Shown here piece by piece: positions 1-10,433 of a stretch of DNA of 10,433 nucleotides; positions within the stretch are counted from its first letter, which is position 1, and each line of letters starts with the position of its first letter. Under the pieces are notes generated by a model that worked only from the letters and a program-made list of their open reading frames with translations, was not told the origin of the DNA and did not search any database. This stretch comes from Elusimicrobia bacterium RIFCSPLOWO2_01_FULL_60_11 (GTDB lineage Bacteria > Elusimicrobiota > Elusimicrobia > 2-02-FULL-39-32). Where the stretch lies: contig MGUS01000020.1 in NCBI GenBank assembly GCA_001800085.1, positions 147 through 10,579 on the forward strand, written 5' to 3'. A program made the position numbers and the translations under genes.

Positions 1-2122
1 GCAGGTCGGACACATCGTCGAGCTTCACCCTGGCCCCGGGGATGCCCATGAACTCCCGCATCATGTCCACAAAGGCCACGTAAGTCTTTCTCTCCCGGGG
101 GGCAAGGCCCCCGCCCATGATCTTGTAGCCCCGATGGATGTGCTTCATCAGGAGTTCGGTGTTGATGTATTCCGTGCCCACCCGCCGCGCATCGTCGAAG
201 AAATTGGGCGTGGCGAGCCCGCGGTTGATGGCTTCGCGCCCGATCAGCTCTAAGTTCCACCTCGTCTCCTGGCGAAGGAGCACATCATCGGTAAAATTCC
301 GGTAGACCCAGATCTTCTTCAAAGCATCGACGAGCCGGAGATATTCGGCGTCTTGAACATATCGGCCGTCCTTGTCCTTGTTGATCTTGTAGCCCCGCGC
401 CCGGGCCATGCCGTTCTCGATCAGAAGCGAGGGTGTGATAGACCCGGCCGGGAGTGCCTTGAACGGTTCATGCCGGAAGAAATCGTTCATAAGACCGGAC
501 TCCTGCGCGTTCGAAGGCGTGGGCGGAGAAGGGATGAGCTCCCCGGGAGTTTGAAGCAGAGGCGGCTTCAAAAAGGCCTCCGGATGGCGGTAGCGCATGA
601 AGATGTCCATCAATTGGTCCCGGTCGATGAACATCGAGAAGAAGTGCTGCACTGAGCGCACGTTGTTAGGATAGGTGATGAGCCCCGTCTCCAAGGCGAC
701 CCAGGGACCCTCCAATTTGGTGTCGGATTCGCGCTCTTTGGACAGGTCCATCCCGGTCTCGTTGGCGATCATGGTGACCATTTTATTGACATCGATGGAA
801 GGGATCCCTCTCTTCTTAAGGACGGTGTTGATCTCCCGCACAGCCATCTCGATGTCGGCTTGCGGGTCGCCGGTCCAGGTGAGTGCGTTGGCGATGTTCC
901 TTTGAAGCCGGTCCACTCCAAGGCCCAGGAACCCCGTCAGCTTTGATTTGTGGTTGTGGGCGACGGCCTCCAGGATGGCCGCGTTGAATGTGTCGTAGAT
1001 GGCGTCCAATACCGCCGGGTTGGACACAAAATCGAGCTTGAACTTGTCCGTCTCCTTAACGTCTCCCGGCTTCGCAGACCCGGCTTTTCTGAGTATTACG
1101 GCCTGCTGCCAGTCCTCGATCGCCATCAGAACCCGGCCCTTGGGCGCGGCTTCAAGCTCCGCGCGGACGGCGGAACGGACGCCATCGCGGCCGCTTTGAT
1201 TCAGTAACTCCCCTGAAGGCCCCTTCGGGTCGCGGTATCGCTTGAGAAGCGCCGCCTCCGCTTCATCGGGCAGGAACCGCTCGGAGAGAAGGATGAAGTC
1301 AACTTCTTTTTCCGTCAGATTCGGGTTGTCCGCGCTGAACAAGGAATCCGGGTGCAGGATGGAGAAGATATCGGCCAGGATGCCGTATCTTTCAGCCCGG
1401 TCGGTCGCGGCCTTGGCCCGGCGCGCCAGGTCGGCAAGGCCCGGGTTCTTTTGGAGGATGAAGGCGATCTCCAGGATGTCTTCCGCGAAAGCGTCGCGGA
1501 TGGAGTCCATGAACAATTCACGGGTGAGGTCCACATTTTCAAGGAGGATGTTGATGGAATCGGGATCGGAAGCGTCAAAGTGGTGGCGGGGGTTCATATG
1601 GATGCTCAACCCCCAATTGACATGGGTGCCGGGAACCCCCAGAGTCTGCGCCGCAAGTTTATTGGAAAGGACCTCCCAATCCTTTTTATGCTCGTCGGGA
1701 TGAAAAAGGTCGCGCCGATCGACCAGGGCCTGGAGTTGCGTGTCTTCCAGCCCCCCGTCCATCCGCAGGTATTTTTCCAGGATGTCCATGAGCGTCTCCA
1801 GTTCCGCGACGGTGTATTTGGAAACAGTGTCCTGCAAACTCAGGCCGCGCGTGATGGAGAGCCGCTCCAAGAGCGTATTCTGGTCCTTCTCCAAACTCAG
1901 AGGGGTCCCTGTCGCGAAGGTCTTGCTCTGGTGGGTGTCGATATGCTCTTTCAACGCGGCCAGGAAACCGGGGTATTCATCGGGATCGAATCCGAGCTGG
2001 AGGCGGGAAAGGAGTTCCATGAAGAGGGACAGGCTGTGGTTCCCATCCATCAGGAAAGCCGTGACATTGGGATAGTCCCATGTGAGGGGCTGGTTCCGGG
2101 GCAGAGTCCTGTGGCCGCTAGC
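1..2122 (-). other. Helical soluble tail of unknown function, runs off the window
   Basis: Residues about 2771-3477 are soluble, mainly helical and acidic, with no membrane helix. Visible landmarks are a Leu-rich helix (SLSLFMELLSRLQLGFDPDE), a His-rich segment HVNWGLSIHMNPRHHF (2937-2952, about 1577-1627), a helix-rich stretch with ARRAKAATDRAERYG, the peptide AILEAVAHNHKSKLTGFLGL, and near the edge GYKIMGGGLAPRERKTYVAF. None matches a family I know. The frame is still open at position 2, so the protein continues. The region has the same codon use as the rest of the gene, so it is not a recent foreign insert. Confidence 0.6.
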
Positions 2123-5100
2123 CAGGGAAGGTGCGAGGGTGATGCGGGCCTCGTGCGGCCTGCCCGGGTCGGTTTCGTTGCTGTTGTATATCCTGAACCT
2201 GACATCGATGGATCCGACCCGCTTGCCGATCTCGTTGAAGGACTCGATCCCGGTCTTGCGCCGGAGCGGGTCCAGAAGTTCGATGTTGTGGAACCCGCCT
2301 TCTTTGGAAACATGGCGCATCAGGGGATATTCCGGCGAGACGAGGTCCGAAGGGTTCAGCTGGAGCTGCACCCGGCCGCCGTCCGGCAAGACGGCCCAGG
2401 CCAGGGCGTCCGCCCGGCTCCCCGGAGCGAAGTTCCCGCTCGGGACGCGAACCCTTAAAAACGGGAACTTAATAAAGTCCGCTACGGGAATGCTCACATC
2501 GATGACGCCTTCTCTTGCGCCTTCAGCTACCACAATGGCGGCTGAATCCGCAGTGCCGGGGACCGGGCTGACTTCCACTCCCGGGCCTGCCCGCAGATTG
2601 GAACGGATCGGAATGACCTCTTCCGGATAGGGGGAATTCAAGGGGCCGGTCAAGTCCCTGGGATTAGCGGCAAAGTAAGCGGAGTCGGCAGGCAGTTCGG
2701 ACATGGGAACTCCCCGATGCTTTTGATAGGCCCTCTCCTGCTCTTCCTCGGACGAACTCCCCGGGGGCAGGACGTCCTCGCGGACCGCTCCGTAAATCGA
2801 GACTCTTTTGATGAACTCCCGCGATTCGTCATAGAATCCGGATACAAGGACCAGGGCCGCGCGGCCAGCGGCGGCGAAGGGAAGGCGCGTCATGCCCTCG
2901 AATGAGAGGGCGAACATGCCGATAAGAAGCTGAAAGACCAGAACGACCGCCGCGGCCTTCACTCTCCAGTTCTTCGGCGCTTTTTTGATGAAATCCTCGA
3001 ATTTGGCCCAGGCACGGTCGTTCCTGGGCCAGAAATAGGCGATGGGGAAGATGGCCACGGCCGTGAATCCGATGACCATCGCGGAAGCATAGTTAAGGAA
3101 GTTGTGGGAAAGGCCGGTCATGTTCATCGTGGCCCAGACCACGACGGCCCAAATGACCGAAAGCACCGCTGACCCCATGAGGGAGCGTTTGGTTCGGTAC
3201 AAGCTTTCCAACCTGCGGCGGTCGATGAAGCTCAAGATCACCAGGGCCGCCATCAGGATGTCCGCGTATGTGAAGAGGGTGAAATCGAGATTGACGCCGG
3301 CTTGAAGGCCTAAAGGCAGGATGAAACCGACGACATGGGCATAAGCGAGGAAACCGCACCACTTGAGCATTTTCCACATGTAAAGTGGCGCTCCGTAAAG
3401 GGGTGGGGATTGAGCCGTGGGCTCGGGCGGGCGTTCGGCATCTTCCCGCCTCCTGTCCCATTCCTGCAGCCAGCCCCTCATGCTCAAGGGGCTGAATACC
3501 GCCCAGGCGGCGTAGAAGACGAGCACGTTCTGGAGCAGGAATCCCGGGATGGCGAAACCCAGGCCGTTGAGGACACCGAAGAAAGCGATGGATGTCGCGG
3601 CCGCAGCCACACCCCACTTATGGGTGCGGAGGCGGTCCATGAAGAATTTCCCCAAGTCGCCCTTGGCCAGGAAATAGATCAACGCGGCGGTGAGGGTCCA
3701 TAGGAGCGCCTTCCCCGCAGGGTTATAGAGCAAGGTGCGGATTCCCTCGAAATAGGACGGTAGGAATGTGAGATATCCGAAGAACCCGGTCGAGATGAGT
3801 TCCACCACTTCGGTCCCCCAGCCGTATTGCTGCAGGTAAATGGCCAGCGATACGGAGATCGGTTTTGCGAGCAGGAAGATGATGGAACGGATGATGGTGT
3901 TGATGAAATCCTTGAACTGGAGGCGCGGGATCTTCTGCTCGATGGTGACGCCCTTGACCTGCACGAAAGCCCCGGCCCAGAACCAGCTCACCACCCCCCC
4001 CACGATCATGGTCTCAAAGGTGCGGATCAACCCCACCGCCGCGGTGTCCGAGGAGATGTGCGTGTTGTAGAGCGTGATCACCAAGAGTCCAGCGAGGGTC
4101 GGCAGGACTCCATAGAGCATCTGGAGAAGCGTGATCTGCTGTTCCTTCGTGGCCTTGGCCACCAAAAGGTTCCGGTCCTGTTCGACCCCATTCTCGATCA
4201 TGAATTCGATGACCTGGGTCGTGGCGAAGGATATGGCGAACATGGCCTGGCCGATCACGACCGTCTGGAGCCAGTTCCACTGCACGCCGAAGATCTCGGT
4301 GTTCCACCAAAAGCTGGTGTTGATGGGTTCCGCCCCCCAGATCTGGAAATATTGGCCCACGATGTCGGCCACCACCGCGCCGAAAACGATGATAAAGGCG
4401 TTGAAAGTATATGTCGCGGGGCGGTACATGCGCTTGGCAGGGTCTTTCAAGCTCACCATGAACCCGCCCAGCCAATCCATGAAGGGCTTGTCGTGCCCGG
4501 GACGGTATCCCGCCGGATCTATCTCAGGGAACGCTTCCCACAATCTCCGGGAAAGAGACCGGGCCTTGGATATGTTCCAGACGGCCCGGACCAGCAGGAC
4601 GGTGAAAATACCGTAGAGCGCGAAGCCCACTGCGGCTGGATTTCCAATCTCAGCCCCGGAGTAATTGAGCAGGAAGGGGCCGAATGAGCCGAAGAACCAC
4701 CCGGCGGAAGCCAGAAGAAGGGCGCCCTTCCATGTCCCCAGGGATTTGAGCATGCCTGAAAAGTCCTGCACGACACCCCTGTAAGCCGGCGGGCTTATTT
4801 CCGCCAATTTATCCAGCAGGCCGATGACGGAGGAACCGATGAATTTGATGGCATGCGCCAAGACATCGGCGATATAGCGCCAGCGGATGAAAAGCGGGGC
4901 AGGGCGACTGGACAGATATGCGCTCCCGAGGAAATTGACGAAACTCATCGCAAAGACCGCGGGCAGGAGGAAAGCCGACGGCAGGTTGTAGAGAGTGGGG
5001 TACCCCAGCAGATACGAGACCAGGGGGATGACCACAAGCCCCAGGGCCCAGAACATCTGGGACGATATCTTGATATCGGTGTCCGCCTCGCTTGTGGGAA

Positions 5101-8100
5101 CGCCCTTGGCATCCGTCGGCGGGTTGATGGAATAGAAAAGGATGCTGGAGCGCCGCCTCGGAAGGAAGGTCTTCCCCATCCAATAGACGATGCCGGCGGA
5201 AGCTGCGGCCGTGATCAGGCCGGGCAAATTCAGATAGGCGCCGGCCTGGTGGAAAAGACCTCCCAGACCGGCCCCGACCAACATCGAAAACGCCGCGGCA
5301 GGGAGCTTATGTCCCGGATCCGAACGGGACTGGAAGCCGGCATCCGCCTTGACATACCCCATGATCTGGAGGAGCTGCCAACTCAAAAAGGTCACTTCCC
5401 AATTGGTCGTAGGAAGAGGGGTATCCTTGTCATCCGAGGGCTGCTGGGGCTGGATGGTTTGGACCAGGATGCGGACCTGCTTCCCGGTGTGGTCCAGGCG
5501 GGTCAAGTTGGCATCCCCCGCAAAATCCACCAGGAGCCGCGCGAACTCGGCTTTGGTGAGGTAGCGGTTCAGGCGCTCGATGAATTCAGAGTCGGACAAT
5601 TCATCCAGGCCTTCAAAATCATACGGCAGTTCGGGGTATTTCAGACCGGAGCCGTCATCCGCGACGGCCACCTCCCGGATGCGGGCCGCCAGGAATGTCC
5701 TGAGATCCGTCAACTTTTCGGGGACCATGTCATTCAGGGTCAAATGACCCCTTCCGTAGGAGTAGTCGAACAACTGCGCGATGGCGCCCAGGGATAGCGC
5801 TCCGGCGATGGAGGCGGCGATGCCGGCATGGCCCGCGATCGTGTTCAGCGCCATGGTCGTCATCCCCCCCGCATCCCAGGCCAGGACCGCAACGAGCGCG
5901 GTCAAATAAGCCGCGTAACCTAAAGTCGTGATTCCGGCGACTTTGAATCTTTGGATGGGAGTATCCTGATTGGCGCCAAATTTGGCGATGGCCACTCCGT
6001 AAGGAAGCAGAAGGGCATCAAATCCCTGGGCAAGGGCTTCACCGATGATGTTGTTCACAAGTACGGACAGGAACCTTCTGAATCGTGTGCTATCCTCGCC
6101 GGCAGCCCTGCGCGCCAGCCAGCCGGGGAGCCCAAGGAAAGCGTAATTGACGACGATGTGAGTGGTCTCATGCGCAACGACGACCGCATGGGTGAGGGTT
6201 CCCGGGGTGACCAAGGACTCGATTTGCTGGGTCAAGGGATCATGCCGTCCCAACCATGCCGTTATTTTTTTGCCTGCGGAGCGGTTGGATATCACCGCCA
6301 TGGCGGCTTTTGCCGCGGTCCATGCCATGGGGGCGACGAGAAGAGAGATCCAGAAGCCCTGAAGCAGGAACGCTGCCACGGCAAAAGATGCAAATCCCCC
6401 CAGGGCAGTCCGGAGATTGAGCGGAGCGGAAACAGGAGCGGGCGCCTCTACGTCATCGTCCGGGAGTTCATCTGAAGTGTCGCCGAGGTTCCGGATCACG
6501 TTGGCGGCTTTTGTTTTGAGCTTGGTCAGCTCCTGCCTTTGCGCGCGGCCTTCGACCAGATTCTTGCCCATCGCCAGCAATTCAGTAACACTCATGCCCT
6601 CAGCTTCACTCATGCCCTCAGCTTCACTCGTGTCCTCTGCAAAAAGCCGGGGGTCCGAATACACGACTCCAAGCTGGTCCGCTCCCATTGCGTTGAGCAG
6701 GAGATTGACGTTCTGCGCCCCAACGACCCTGGACTGCAGGTTCGCGGCGGCCAAAACTCCCGCCTGGGCCATTTTGAGTCCGACCGTGTCATAGTGCATG
6801 ATGATATGGGCGATCTGTCTAGCGGCGTCATCGACATCCGGTTCCTGCGTATCCAGTTTCCCCTTCATCTTCGACATCACGATCGGACTGATCCACTTGC
6901 CCATGAATTTCACGGCCAGGGTCTTCATCAGCCAGAAATTGTCCATGGAGCGGGACAATACGGCAGGGGTGCCGTAAGCCGTCACCTCGATCGGCGGACC
7001 GCTCGTCCCGGTATTGTCGACATAGGGCAAGTCGATGACCGAGTACATCTCCTTGACCCATTCAAATTCATCCCCCTCGAGCCGGTCCGGCCTGTAAATG
7101 ACGCGAACGTCCTTCCCTTTGGCCTTCTCCGACCTGATGCTGTCCATCAGGTAATCTTCGTAGGCCTTGGAGGTCCAGGCCTTGTCCGGGTCCTCGCCTT
7201 TTGATTCGGCTTCCCTTCTGACTTTTAATATCTGCTTGACGATGTCATTCTGGGTGATGACCAGGACATGTTTGTGCTGCCAGTTCTGGGGGTCGGCATA
7301 GAAATCGATCATGGATTCGGCATAGGTCTGCCGGAACAGCTTGCCGAAGGCCTTTCTGACCCATTTTCCCAGTGAATTGGGATTGTCGCCTCCCGCCACG
7401 ACCGCAAAAACCTCCAAATCAGGATACAAGACGTCATCCATATATTTGACGACTTCGGGATTGAACGCGTTCAGATACGCGCTCCTTATGATTTCGCGGT
7501 TCGCAACGCGGATCTGCTTGGCGGTCAGATCAAGACCCTCGACAGACATCTCGTCCATGGTCTGATTCAGGACCTCGATCAGGATCTCGGGAGTCACGCC
7601 CGAATACCCCGCAGCGCCGCCCGGCTTCTTCCGCAGCAGACGGTCGAATGTGAGCTTGACCTTCCTTTGGGCGTCCGTTTTAGGGTTCTGCAAATGCTCC
7701 TGGAGGATGGCGGCGTCAACGGCGCCTTTGGGAAAGAGAAGCGTATCCAGGTTCTGTTCATCGACCATGAGACTTGCCTTGATCGCGGTATCGACCTGGT
7801 GTCCCACCTGCTTGTATCCCACCCATTTCAAGACGGTGTTCCACATCTCGGTCCAGCGCCCTTCCTGCTTGCCGAACGCGCCGATCCAAAAACGCTTGTT
7901 GATCACGTAGAATTTATCGATCAGACGGAATTTCACGTCCGGGTCTTTTTTCTGCTCTTCGATGAGTTTTTTATGGTTGTCGCTGCCGCTGTATACCAGT
8001 GAAAACATGCCGGCGAACGAACCATGAGCGCTCCGTCCGGTGATGATCTTGTGGAAAAATTTGACGGTCTTGCGGTAATAATCGAACAGATAGGTCAGGA

Positions 8101-10433
8101 TCACCTTGGGCTCGCCTTTAGCATCGACCCGGTCGTAACTCTTTTCGGTCGCGCCGGAGCCGCCGATGACTTTAAGAAATCCGAAGGAGTCGACCCATTT
8201 GCCGATCGCTTCTCCCAGAGTGGTCCAGCCGGTATGGTGGAATATGGCCACCATGCCCAAGCCCGCCTTGTCGGCCACAAACCTGGCTAAAAAGTTCTGG
8301 AACGCGCCTTCGATCTTGCCGCTGGTGCTCGAAGTGAGCAGGAACTGCGTCATGAGGACCGTGACTCCGATCTCCTTTATGGCTTGGGAAAGCTCCGGGG
8401 TTTTATCCGTGTTCTCAAAACGCGTCACGCGGTAGACCGTGAATTCAGAAGGCGTGCGGTCCTTTTGGATGACCACTAATTCTGGTTTGGCTTGCTTGAG
8501 CGCGACGGGATCGAGCTGCTTGTTGCGGTCCTGCACCATTTTGCCTGCGGCCGCTCTTTCTACGATCTGATAATACGGGACGTCCTCATCTGCGGTTTCA
8601 ACATGGAACATTATTTTGGGCTCCCGGATCATGCCGCGGAGAGAGTCCAGCCGATCCTTGCGGCCTTCTACGGCCGACCAATTCCGCGAAACCTTGAGGA
8701 CAATGGCTAGAGGCGTCCTCTCATAAGGCTTGATGATAGGGTAGATGTCGCTGAAGAGTATGTTCTGCTCGATATCCAGCTTGCTGGCGTCTATTTCTAT
8801 CTTGCGGATGCGCTCAGGCTGTCCGGAAGCGTTGTTGATGAGCGTATATCCCGCATTGACCGATATCTTCCCGGCCAGGTTCGACCCTTTGATGTCGATT
8901 CCTTCCTCGGGGTCGCCATCAAAATCCTTGCCGCCGCTGTCTTGCCTGCGGATGCCTTCGGGCACCTTGGGATCGAGAGAATTCTTGACCGCCCCATGAC
9001 CGAACATCTGGGCGCGGTAATAGACCTGCTTCTCGTCTTCGAGGACCAGGACCAGCGCGATCTCGGCGCCGCCCACCTTTCCCCTGCTTTGAAGCATGAT
9101 CTTCTCCACAGGGCCCTTAGGGTCATGCAATATCCTGTTTTCCCCGATCCAACCGCGCCCGATCTTTGCGACCACGACGATTTTGGATTCGATCGGAGTC
9201 CACACGGGCTTTTTCCTGCCCTCGGATTTAGCAAGCTCTGTTTCGCGTGTGCGCCGCTCGAGCTCCCTGTTCCTGGTTTCAAGCACGCCATCAAGGACGC
9301 CTTTGAGCTTGTCCAAATCAACGTCCTCGGGGTCGGTATTTGTGAAGTCCACGACGACCTTGTCAGCGAACGCCGTTTTCAGAGTATTGTTGTTCTTGAG
9401 CAGGATGCGTCCGACACGGGCATCATAGATGCCCTGCGCACTCCCGTCGTGCGTCCCGGGATGCCACCCGTCCATGAAGTAGTCGGCGATCTTCCCCATC
9501 CTCTCCTTGCCTCTGGAATCCGGATCCGCATCCCGGCTGTCGAACCAGTCTTGATGGCTCAATGTGGATACGGTGAGCTCTCCCGCTTGATTGAAAGGAC
9601 CGAACCCCGGGATCACGATCTCTTTGACATATTCTCCCAGACCGCCTTCGAGGGCCAGAGGGGTGATGATGCCGAGGCGCATGGGTTGGGAGAGCGGCCA
9701 CATCGGGAGTAGGCCCAGGCCAGGGTTTTCCATGATGGTATTGACCTCGGCGCTGATCTCGGACTTCAATTCATTGAGCCGTTCATTGTGATATTCACGC
9801 CAGTGGAGCAGGGTTTTCTCATCCTTTCTGTTTCTTTCATCTTGCTTTTCGAATTCAGCGAGTTTTTCAGCGGCAAGGATCTGCGCCGCGATCGTTCCAT
9901 AGATGATGGAATCCACCACCTTTTTGGCTGCATCGGACTCTTTGGCCAATTCCGAGCCCTTTTCAAAACGCGCCTTGTTCACGGCGATGAAGTATTTCCC
10001 GTCCGCGCCGAGCTTCAGAGAGGCCAGCTTGGACATCACGATAAAATCGCTGTCACTTCCCGTCAGGTCGGGGAATTCTTCGATGACCACGTCCAATGCG
10101 GGTTTATCCCCAAGCCGCATTGCCAGGTCCTTGGCGAGGGCGGTAAGAGCTTCGTCCGGCTTGCCTGCGGCTTGCGCACTGCTTCTCTTCTTGAATATAG
10201 AGCCAAAAAACGGGATGGCAGCGTATCTAAAGCCATTCAGGTCCACAGTCGTGCCGCTCAACGCGGCATTTGCCGGTTGTGGAAAGAAATTATAAATGAC
10301 ATAGAAGACGACCGCGGAGGCGGCCACCGCGAAGAATATCATGGCCCTTGTCTTGTTCGAAAGGATCCATTTCCAGGTCCGCACGGCCGCGAAAGCCGAG
10401 AGCCCTGCTGACCAGTACGAGATGTCTTTGGAG
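1..10433 (-). CDS. Giant multidomain membrane protein, internal fragment (both ends outside window)
   Basis: One uninterrupted minus-strand frame (codons ending at position 2, 5, 8 and so on) runs across the whole window, giving about 3,477 residues with no stop. Register was confirmed at independent anchors (10283, 9680, 8234, 7382, 6986, 6170, 5282, 2915, 1577, 2). The translation is protein-like throughout, with amphipathic helices, about 20 clear hydrophobic helices, beta-rich stretches and Pro/acidic linkers, and no sign of a frameshift. In order it holds a membrane helix, a charged helical segment, a GT35/GT5-like region, a linker, a membrane metallopeptidase-like segment, a soluble insert, a polytopic membrane block, a beta domain and a helical tail. 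Function as a whole is unknown; a cell-envelope glycan role is inferred from the domains. I noted only one Cys codon (residue 2359). The start is not determined: upstream codons stay open to the edge, and Val17 or Met31 lack a good ribosome binding site. Bacterial genes this long are rare and best known from Omnitrophota. Confidence 0.95.
2123..2512 (-). other. Beta-rich domain, possibly a carbohydrate-binding-like sandwich
   Basis: Residues about 2641-2770 alternate short hydrophobic strands with polar turns: GVIDVSIPVADF, FPFLRVRVPSGNFAPGSRAD, AWAVLPDGGRVQLQLNP, GGFHNIELLDPLRRKTG and GSIDVRFRIYNSNE. The pattern resembles jelly-roll modules such as carbohydrate-binding or galactose-binding-like domains, in which a 'strand-ADALAW-strand' hairpin is followed by a G-D/N-xxxDL-like edge. 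No specific family can be named. It comes directly after the last membrane helix and a Ser/Glu/Pro-rich linker (about residues 2545-2640), so it probably projects into the extracytoplasmic space or the cytoplasm next to the membrane. Confidence 0.4.
2900..5302 (-). other. Large polytopic membrane domain, family not recognised
   Basis: Residues about 1711-2511 hold at least 15 hydrophobic helices. Examples are 1712-1731, 1793-1811, 1817-1837, 1903-1922, 1932-1952, 2008-2029 and the last at 2493-2511. Loops are rich in Trp, Tyr, Arg and Lys. Longer hydrophilic loops lie at about 1762-1792 (SINPPTDAKGVPTSEADTD) and 1953-2007. A basic/acidic Pro-rich loop (WDRRREDAERPPEPTAQSPP) sits near position 3430. 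Scattered charged residues inside helices, such as Asp2023, could line a polar path, so a channel, flippase or transport role is conceivable, but no transporter signature was found. The only Cys codon noted in the whole frame (residue 2359, at 3356-3358) is here. Membrane topology is read by eye. Confidence 0.8.
5306..5746 (-). other. Soluble insert between two membrane blocks
   Basis: Residues about 1563-1709 are hydrophilic and contain no membrane helix. The first part is helical and acidic (for example DELSDSEFIERLNRYLTKAE). A beta-like stretch follows (QVRILVQTIQP, then NWEVTFLSWQLLQIMGYVK). No family is recognised. It separates the HETTH-bearing helices from the large polytopic block and may be a regulatory or docking loop of the metallopeptidase-like unit. 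Confidence 0.45.
5750..6403 (-). other. Membrane-embedded zinc metallopeptidase-like segment (HETTH)
   Basis: Residues about 1344-1561. A hydrophobic double segment (1346-1381) is followed by a basic loop (Arg1384, Lys1388, Lys1389). Then comes VVVAHETTHIVV with His1421, Glu1422 and His1425 (6158-6172), the HExxH zinc signature. Forty residues later IIGEALAQGFDALLLP supplies Glu1465 (6038-6040) as a plausible third ligand, with Ala and Asp placed roughly as in the E..A(D) motif of gluzincins such as M48/HtpX. Two more hydrophobic helices follow (about 1499-1519 and 1527-1552). The arrangement of membrane helices, AHExxH and a downstream Glu resembles HtpX-type membrane peptidases. The basic loop would put the site on the cytoplasmic face. 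The M50 and CAAX/ABI (EExxxR) motifs are not present. An HExxH can occur by chance, but the hydrophobic beta-strand-like approach and the Glu spacing support it. Confidence 0.6.
6590..6625. repeat. In-frame tandem repeat, 2 x 18 bp
   Basis: Two perfect back-to-back copies of ACTCATGCCCTCAGCTTC (plus strand), at 6590-6607 and 6608-6625, encode the hexapeptide EAEGMS twice on the minus strand; a decayed third copy (ACTCGTGTCCTC) follows at about 6626. The unit length is a multiple of three, so copy-number change would keep the frame. It lies in the linker between the GT-B-like region and the metallopeptidase-like membrane block, just before a helix and the acidic/Pro stretch DELPDDDVEAPAPVSAP. 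It looks like a flexible linker formed by replication slippage. Confidence 0.9.
6833..9682 (-). other. GT-B glycan phosphorylase/synthase-like region (GT35/GT5-like, degenerate)
   Basis: Residues about 251-1200 carry weak matches, in the right order, to the alpha-glucan phosphorylase (GT35)/glycogen synthase (GT5) superfamily. GIITPLALEGGLGEY (254-268) resembles the N-terminal GGLG loop. HHTGWTTLGEAIGKW (732 on) resembles the phosphorylase HT..LPEAL.KW segment. LDLTAKQIRVANREIIRSA resembles the LD..AL.IGFARRFATYKRA segment. AVVAGGDNPNSLGK (from 1010) resembles the AGKAHP..E.GK segment. DNTGTSG followed by IEVTAYGTPAVLS (1139-1160) resembles EASGTSGMKAALNGVLNLS. Family members use a GT-B fold to transfer or phosphorolyse glucans. 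Here the PLP-binding Lys that follows GTSG-Met is replaced (GTSGPP), and the phosphate-binding Lys of the YKR motif is not seen, although one Arg aligns. A beta-rich insert (around residues 500-610) interrupts the fold. It may be a non-catalytic glucan-binding relative or a changed glycosyltransferase. The alignment was made by eye. Confidence 0.5.
9716..10045 (-). other. Charged helical, possibly coiled-coil segment
   Basis: Residues about 130-239 are rich in Lys, Glu, Asp, Ala and Arg with few helix breakers, for example AAEKLAEFEKQDERNRKDEK and the following WREYHNERLNELKSEISAEV. This predicts long helices that could form a coiled coil or a spacer. The segment joins the N-proximal membrane helix to the GT-B-like region. 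No catalytic motif is visible. The region between it and the membrane helix (about residues 51-129) is mixed alpha/beta with no recognised family. Confidence 0.5.
10283..10345 (-). other. Single transmembrane helix near the N-terminal edge
   Basis: Residues 30-50 of the visible protein form one strongly hydrophobic stretch (AMIFFAVAASAVVFYVIYNF). It is preceded by Lys21, Lys27 and Arg29 and followed by PQPANA. By the positive-inside rule the N-side would be cytoplasmic and the following large soluble region extracytoplasmic. The Ala-Asn-Ala after the helix resembles a signal peptidase site, so this could be a signal peptide if translation started just upstream (GTG at residue 17 or ATG at residue 31). 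No convincing Shine-Dalgarno sequence precedes either codon, and the frame stays open upstream, so an internal membrane helix is preferred. Confidence 0.75.

Follow-up and report, generated by a model that had tools for sequence, protein, structure and literature searches.

A 10.4-kb stop-free frame of an Elusimicrobiota genome as the probable interior of a giant, multi-spanning envelope gene with a GT-B-like module

The window, that is the whole stretch of 10,433 nt analysed here, is crossed on its minus strand by one frame, which we interpret with moderate confidence as an internal stretch of a giant-type, multi-spanning envelope gene carrying a GT-B-like module and possibly a zincin. That it belongs to a real gene of the giant envelope type is the firmest part of this reading and is held to be highly likely. 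Giants of such a kind are already known from Elusimicrobiota and Omnitrophota, and the window protein has hardly a counterpart to date.

Open frame and coding signal

Re-translation of the minus strand gave 3477 codons without a stop, open at both ends, in agreement with the original prediction; the other five frames of the window hold 26 to 190 stops. An open-reading-frame listing that requires both ends misses this frame, as had also been pointed out, and lists it once open ends are allowed. The window corresponds to G000:C20:147-10579, its right edge being the contig end and its left edge abutting a scaffold gap of 33 N (C20:114-146). The whole contig (10,579 nt) is stop-free in the window's frame over 3526 codons, 11 of them inside the gap, and neither the start nor the stop codon of the gene is seen in it; 3526 codons is a lower bound for the gene length.

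2..10432, minus strand: single stop-free frame, aa 1-3477, open at both ends (open-frame listing, coding statistics)
10382..10384, minus strand: first in-frame GTG, a poor start candidate (no purine-rich run by eye; coding-like upstream codons)
6589..6637, minus strand: 18-bp tandem repeat, 2.7 copies (SEAEGM), in frame, between the GT-B-like module and the membrane region

The claim that this is not a chance frame stands. Among 200 sequences simulated at the same composition with a first-order Markov model, the longest run free of stops over three frames averaged 243 codons and never exceeded 454, and the coding signal of the window persists along the frame to the contig edges. GC at codon positions 1/2/3 is 0.58/0.41/0.74, and synonymous codon usage correlates with that of three short genes of contig C87 of the same genome at r = 0.85-0.89; six successive segments of the frame gave r = 0.79-0.91 each and are gene-like throughout. 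One further row of this comparison, fr2, was read out of frame (r = 0.249) and is left out of account. The tetranucleotides of C20 correlate at r 0.86-0.96 with six other stretches of its own genome, and at r 0.961 with the long region of C87; for six stretches taken from other genomes the values are -0.04 to 0.85. The binning of C20 appears right, though the own and other ranges nearly touch. Given the simulated maximum, the gene-like codon usage and the tetranucleotide fit, a chance frame, decay or mis-binning of the window gene is unlikely.

Beyond the N gap, the remaining 113-nt stub scores 25.2 bits in the continuing frame versus 4.9 for the next best of six frames, the stub frame counting as a continuation of the window's only if the gap length is right. 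At the other end, the 16 codons upstream of the first GTG have a coding score of +2.9 bits, against an in-frame mean of 6.9 (sd 4.0) and an out-of-frame mean of -12.7 (sd 7.4), the latter drawn from within the window gene and not from intergenic DNA. Because both the stub and these 16 codons look coding, the gene very probably extends past both contig ends. No exact overlap of 15-199 bases joins the end of C87 to the start of the C20 gene. Nor do the ends of C20 have any 15-mer in common with C87 or C95 at their true ends, or with C19 or C22 at their low ends; the high ends of C19 and C22, and C53, lay outside this comparison. Rfam gave no match on C20.

Membrane segments and zincin-like motif

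The Kyte-Doolittle scale gives 16 hydrophobic segments: a single one at aa 32-50 and another fifteen within aa 1348-2511. This membrane region is preceded by ~1300 aa and followed by 966 aa of soluble sequence; a looser hydropathy rule gives 17 TM segments.

10283..10339, minus strand: first hydrophobic segment, aa 32-50, internal TM or signal anchor (Kyte-Doolittle)
6158..6172, minus strand: HETTH zincin-like motif, aa 1421-1425 (motif scan)
2900..6391, minus strand: membrane region, aa 1348-2511, 15 of the 16 hydrophobic segments, with soluble loops between (Kyte-Doolittle)
2..2899, minus strand: large C-terminal soluble region, aa 2512-3477, no relative found (hydropathy; searches)

The first segment has a basic N side (4 K/R) and is followed by PQPANA. 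Basic residues ahead of this segment and near the last four suggest an outward orientation for both the GT-B-like module and the C-terminal region, and by the positive-inside rule the C-terminal soluble region would be extracytoplasmic. The count of 16 segments conflicts with such an N-in/C-out topology, for which an odd number is needed; 17 would fit. An outward GT-B module would be without nucleotide sugars, so that it would more probably bind glycans or use a non-standard donor than carry out ordinary synthesis.

The HExxH motif at aa 1421 stands in a hydrophobic context (VVVAHETTHIVV) and was read by the zincin-like context rule for such motifs. Neither Pfam nor NCBIfam gave a zincin family-level match for the HETTH region. 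Across 28 long frames (121,910 aa) HExxH occurs 12 times, versus 2.4 expected and a maximum of 6 in 200 shuffles; one of the 12 precedes a probable start codon, and two represent a single site shared by sister genomes. On the motif and its surroundings, the HETTH region is a putative zinc peptidase, an assignment that we consider distinctly doubtful.

GT-B-like module and its paralogue

The long soluble stretch ahead of the membrane region holds a module that is shared with the second long coding region of the same genome, on contig C87.

6713..9685, minus strand: GT-B-like module, aa ~250-1240, distant paralogue in G000:C87 (sequence and profile matches)
9536..9658, minus strand: N-terminal conserved block of the module, aa 259-299 (comparison with C87)
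6890..7069, minus strand: aa 1122-1181, match to the sugar-nucleotide half of WaaA (GT30), GTSGPPIE..AYGTPAVL (profile)

Two colinear blocks link codons 841-1675 of the second C87 frame to aa 259-1239 of the window, with ~28% identity in the best block. Searching from the window side recovered the second block in C87 (E 2.5e-6), and searching from the C87 side recovered both, colinear, at E 1.2e-6 and 1.4e-3, with a match in one of 26 genomes, the window's own. Within the block at aa 259-299, PGF and HQDW are common to the window and C87, and GGLGEY is found in the window only.

A profile of seven WaaA sequences placed the window at the top of 46 long frames (E 3.8e-6 in that small set; next 0.79), and hhalign of the module against WaaA gave a probability of 65-80% over ~80 residues. 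The same comparison with GT5, glycogen phosphorylase and GlgP-like sets gave about 1% or less. These profile sets comprised 7 of 8 WaaA loci, omitting one that carries an internal stop, together with 13 of 16 GT5 rows and 6 of 10 GlgP-like rows; the phosphorylase set included one unrelated row (L151), without which the result was unchanged. A GT5, glycogen-phosphorylase or GlgP-like identity of the module was rejected, as of these profiles only that of WaaA matched. The curated GT-B family models of Pfam and NCBIfam did not recognise the module, and AlphaFold models were unusable (pLDDT 29 for the module and 34 for the C-terminal region).

Because the second shared block holds the WaaA-like sugar-nucleotide signature in the window, the comparisons support a diverged GT-B module with such a signature, any catalysis by it being putative. 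With WaaA, the Kdo transferase of GT30, it has in common the signature of the sugar-nucleotide half; with starch synthase (GT5) it shares a GGLG motif near its start, which we take to be a GT5 motif. It differs from both in its length of ~1000 aa, versus about 420-570 for the GT30 and GT5 members used, and has neither a family-model match nor a positive GT5 profile.

Contig C87 (21.5 kb) holds three successive long frames of 2518, 1723 and 630 codons from ~7.46 kb to the contig end, which sit in different phases and meet at N gaps; we infer that they are one gene with mis-sized gaps. Since the C87 leader (described below) and the C87 module lie in different reading phases on opposite sides of an N gap, the two may be joined in one gene only on that inference. 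The window and the C87 long region have the GT-B-like module with its two colinear blocks in common, whereas the leader and a HATPase part of C87 are not seen in the window. Upstream of the C87 long region lie genes for an ABC-transporter permease, a GH65 and a GH130 (L015:132-5813, G000:C87).

A GT-B module behind a leader does exist, since a leader-headed frame of 3247 codons in another genome (L183:3580-13320, G020:C6) carries a starch-synthase-type module, matching PF08323 at E 3.5e-25 and PF00534 at E 2.1e-15. This module has an FEPCGL motif and is followed by TM segments.

Searches for relatives of the window protein

The whole window protein has no match in Pfam or NCBIfam at E <= 1; its pieces gave chance-level Pfam hits below the cut-off (E 0.11 and 0.18) and none in NCBIfam. 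No solved structure in the PDB rose above chance, two chains standing at E 0.74 and 2. Three metagenome protein searches, covering ~5.8 billion proteins overall, returned nothing above chance; relatives could be missed there because a candidate has to be 0.55-1.75 times as long as the query, and because in two of the searches scoring was confined to the ~8000 candidates with the most shared words. Scanning named genomes for a pattern gave no relative.

Among 60 related genomes, pieces of the window matched their own genome and none of the other 59, and two genomes of the same genus gave no match. Across 340 genomes of the phylum (E <= 0.01), matches fell in the window's own genome (C20, C87) and in eight genomes of one other genus, the latter over 55-61 residues at E 9e-4 to 8e-3; one of these other-genus proteins is a Kdo transferase (Pfam; one protein run). 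The A2 alignment, run against 235 genomes of the class, found the own genome and one borderline match (E 0.009). Viral contigs held no relative of the window or its module, and none of the phages matched the module. As a yardstick, the starch synthase encoded in the window's genome shares 56-57% identity with its counterparts in the two genomes of the same genus. By these searches the window protein is close to an orphan.

A leader domain heading other giant frames

A conserved leader of ~550 aa, with no confident family match, is found at L015:7458-9548 (G000:C87). It heads many very long Elusimicrobiota frames and is present in Omnitrophota too. Searching with the first part of C87 gave matches in 20 of 60 relatives. 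With an alignment of 12 leaders, 20 of 235 genomes from the class matched, in six families; the number of copies is underestimated here, as ~5 candidates were scored for each genome. These 20 include no genome of family f10, nor G006 of the window's own family. In a scan of named genomes, the best 80 of 477 relatives comprised 43 from Elusimicrobiota (one Obscuribacterium) and 37 from Omnitrophota or Omnitrophica by title. The longest leader-headed frames reach 12,444, 12,118 and 11,491 codons and are N-free over the stretches examined.

The short leader motifs QDxH, EG and GGxHxxG presumably recall the Tiki/ChaN superfamily. The Pfam ChaN model detected one of 12 leader members at E below 0.01, and two further leader frames scored 20.9 and 17.1 bits versus a cut-off of 27.7; solved structures gave no match to the leader (one chain at E 2). 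The Tiki/ChaN assignment is therefore a weak one. A full-text search, with preprints and most subscription journals outside its scope, contained no recognisable published description of the leader.

The leader profile did not list the C20 frame, a result for its visible part, the N-terminal end being cut by the contig edge. A leader upstream of the window, beyond the contig end, has in our estimate slightly less than an even chance.

Several further observations were made on leader-bearing sequences. An IMG/VR contig, L196 (IMGVR_UViG_3300045144_000334), holds a leader relative at 26% identity and may be a misassigned bacterial contig. In G032:C49 (L064/L065), the leader of the 12,118-codon frame occurs twice, inverted and with identical scores, at 80364-82010 (minus strand) and 102789-104435 (plus strand), and G032:C82 has the same pattern; this is probably a palindromic assembly artefact, or else a real inverted duplication. 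G008:C16:296851-331323 (L051/L052) is one frame of 11,491 codons, whereas G007:C10:60845-95880 (L061/L062) has two, of 2914 and 8039 codons and ~2.2 kb apart, by a frameshift, a real split or an assembly error. The leader-headed giant L047:3444-18443 (G002:C8) has an OEP outer-membrane efflux domain at aa 3713-3897 (Pfam E 6.1e-10). The giant L053:1872-16871 (G022:C44) has SNF2 and helicase C-terminal domains at aa 2790-3265, which are odd for an exported protein, and a signal-like N-terminus.

Variation and selection in the bodies of giants

Body and leader were compared in 29 frames of >=1400 aa, most of them chosen via the leader. In leader-bearing frames, 60-97% of the first 700 residues aligned to other genera, a figure that owes something to this choice of frames. 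Past residue 700, other genera covered 0-3%, except for 8% (G032), 18% (one G020 frame) and 26% (G011), and coverage within the genus was 0-19%, except for the close pair G007/G008 (93-99%). For L186 and L194, which overlap the same gene, the own-genome coverage values are inflated.

Four bodies were searched against whole genomes. The window matched one of 60 genomes and the C87 module one of 26, in both cases their own; 3000 aa of a G002 giant matched two of 60, itself and G027 over 93 residues; and 3000 aa of the 12,444-codon G022 giant matched five of 60. This last body has a clear homologue in G028, of another family, which covers most of the piece at 41-52% identity; the matches in G007, G008 and G037 are weaker and patchy. 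Rapid body divergence thus appears frequent and not universal, with three near-orphan bodies and one conserved. The pair conserved between families (G022:C44:104000-112999 and G028:C168, C98 and C212) is well suited to tracing body evolution.

Purifying selection on a giant is indicated by the G007/G008 pair, with dN/dS of 0.26 (2871 codons) and 0.16 (7915 codons), and 0.08-0.38 by segment; the values come from one close pair, and from genes other than the window's.

Host phylum and published giant genes

Since its same-genus, same-family and same-class genomes belong there, the host of the window is a member of the Elusimicrobiota. The original prediction had pointed to Omnitrophota, as the best-documented home of such genes, which does not fit these relatives. 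Its placing of the frame among giant genes holds for a real, very long, poorly annotated frame of the many-TM kind. As to size, the visible 3526 codons are a lower bound that stays under the published cut-offs of >5000 aa (PMC11573180) and an ORF >20 kb (PMC10066038), both gene ends very probably lying beyond the contig. It had also mentioned a suspected role in cell-surface interaction or predation, and nothing in the window sequence shows one.

In the passages of these papers used here, Elusimicrobiota are reported as enriched in proteins over 5000 aa without COG assignment (Amaral and Devos 2024, PMC11573180), and giants of Omnitrophota are linked to attachment and predation (Seymour et al. 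2023, PMC10066038). A preprint on giant genes of predatory bacteria is cited in PMC12057145. The portions seen of a paper followed up as a polymorphic-toxin lead (PMC3482391) held nothing on these giant genes, and this lead was dropped.

As described in those passages, the giant ORFs of Omnitrophota (PMC10066038) are like the window in their very long frame, many TM helices, large soluble regions, few annotated domains and poor conservation. The window differs in its phylum, in the 3526 codons shown versus >20 kb, and in that no adhesin domain was found. It shares its phylum with the huge Elusimicrobiota proteins (PMC11573180), although its full length is only bounded below and the passages give no domain architecture for comparison. 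The window combines many TM segments and large soluble regions, few domains and poor conservation, and the host phylum, as a giant envelope gene would.

Alternative explanations

The gene might instead be an independent, leaderless giant that begins at GTG 10384 and has a signal peptide or signal anchor of its own (MRTWKW...PQPANA). A hydrophobic stretch with a basic N side and an A-x-A-like end does follow directly after the GTG, but the last ~15 nt before it contain no purine-rich run by eye and the 16 codons ahead of it look coding when read in this frame, and we regard such a start as rather unlikely. Still less probable is a neutral fusion, in which transferase-like, peptidase-like and transporter-like genes merged via stop loss without a joint function. 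Mixed modules and poor conservation would agree with it, and fusion by stop loss is a published hypothesis for huge proteins (PMC11573180, in the passages used). The window frame, however, is without decay, the one testable giant pair evolves at dN/dS 0.16-0.26 over >10,000 codons, and a body stretch of another giant is kept in a genome of another family.

An assembly or binning artefact, either a chimeric contig or a contaminant, is very improbable. The genome is scaffolded with N gaps, 74% complete and in 137 contigs, and two same-genus genomes are without a match; yet codon usage is gene-like in six of six segments, the tetranucleotides fit the genome, and the homology to C87 lies within the same genome. 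We give almost no weight to a classical giant, that is an NRPS/PKS megasynthase or a repeat adhesin. These are the usual kinds of huge bacterial proteins (PMC11573180, same passages), but the window has no NRPS/PKS or adhesin Pfam domain, self-BLASTP found no internal repeat save one 49-bp tandem array, and the protein has about 16-17 TM segments.

Proposed role and wider significance

Read as the interior of a giant envelope gene, the window would encode part of an inner-membrane protein that exposes its GT-B-like module and its last 966 residues on the non-cytoplasmic side. This module would bind or modify surface glycans as a degenerate, perhaps lectin-like, GT-B fold, and the HETTH region would be a membrane zinc peptidase processing the giant itself or other envelope proteins. 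The whole protein might then serve surface carbohydrate handling or contact with other cells, and the leader that heads other long frames of the same genome may lie upstream, past the contig end. A glycan-related function is putative, and we hold it as a tentative proposal on the unlikely side.

A wider reading, equally speculative, is that of a superfamily spanning two phyla, Elusimicrobiota and Omnitrophota, in which a ~550-aa leader precedes a multi-spanning body of thousands of residues, the window being one such body. Bodies would often be specific to narrow lineages and present in several to many copies per genome, forming an envelope repertoire on one secretion or assembly leader in which degenerate enzyme modules (glycosyltransferases, zincins, ATPases, helicase-like) are reused; diversification would affect most of the length and not only the C-terminal tip. 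The likelihood of this reading is lowered because one body is clearly conserved between families.

Giant bacterial genes mostly have no annotated domains and are therefore difficult to group or test. The body in the window is so alien that it is recognisable only against the second long coding region of its own genome, while the shared leader groups many very long frames of two phyla. If this leader is a common secretion or assembly signal, it would offer one testable entry point to the function of the giants.
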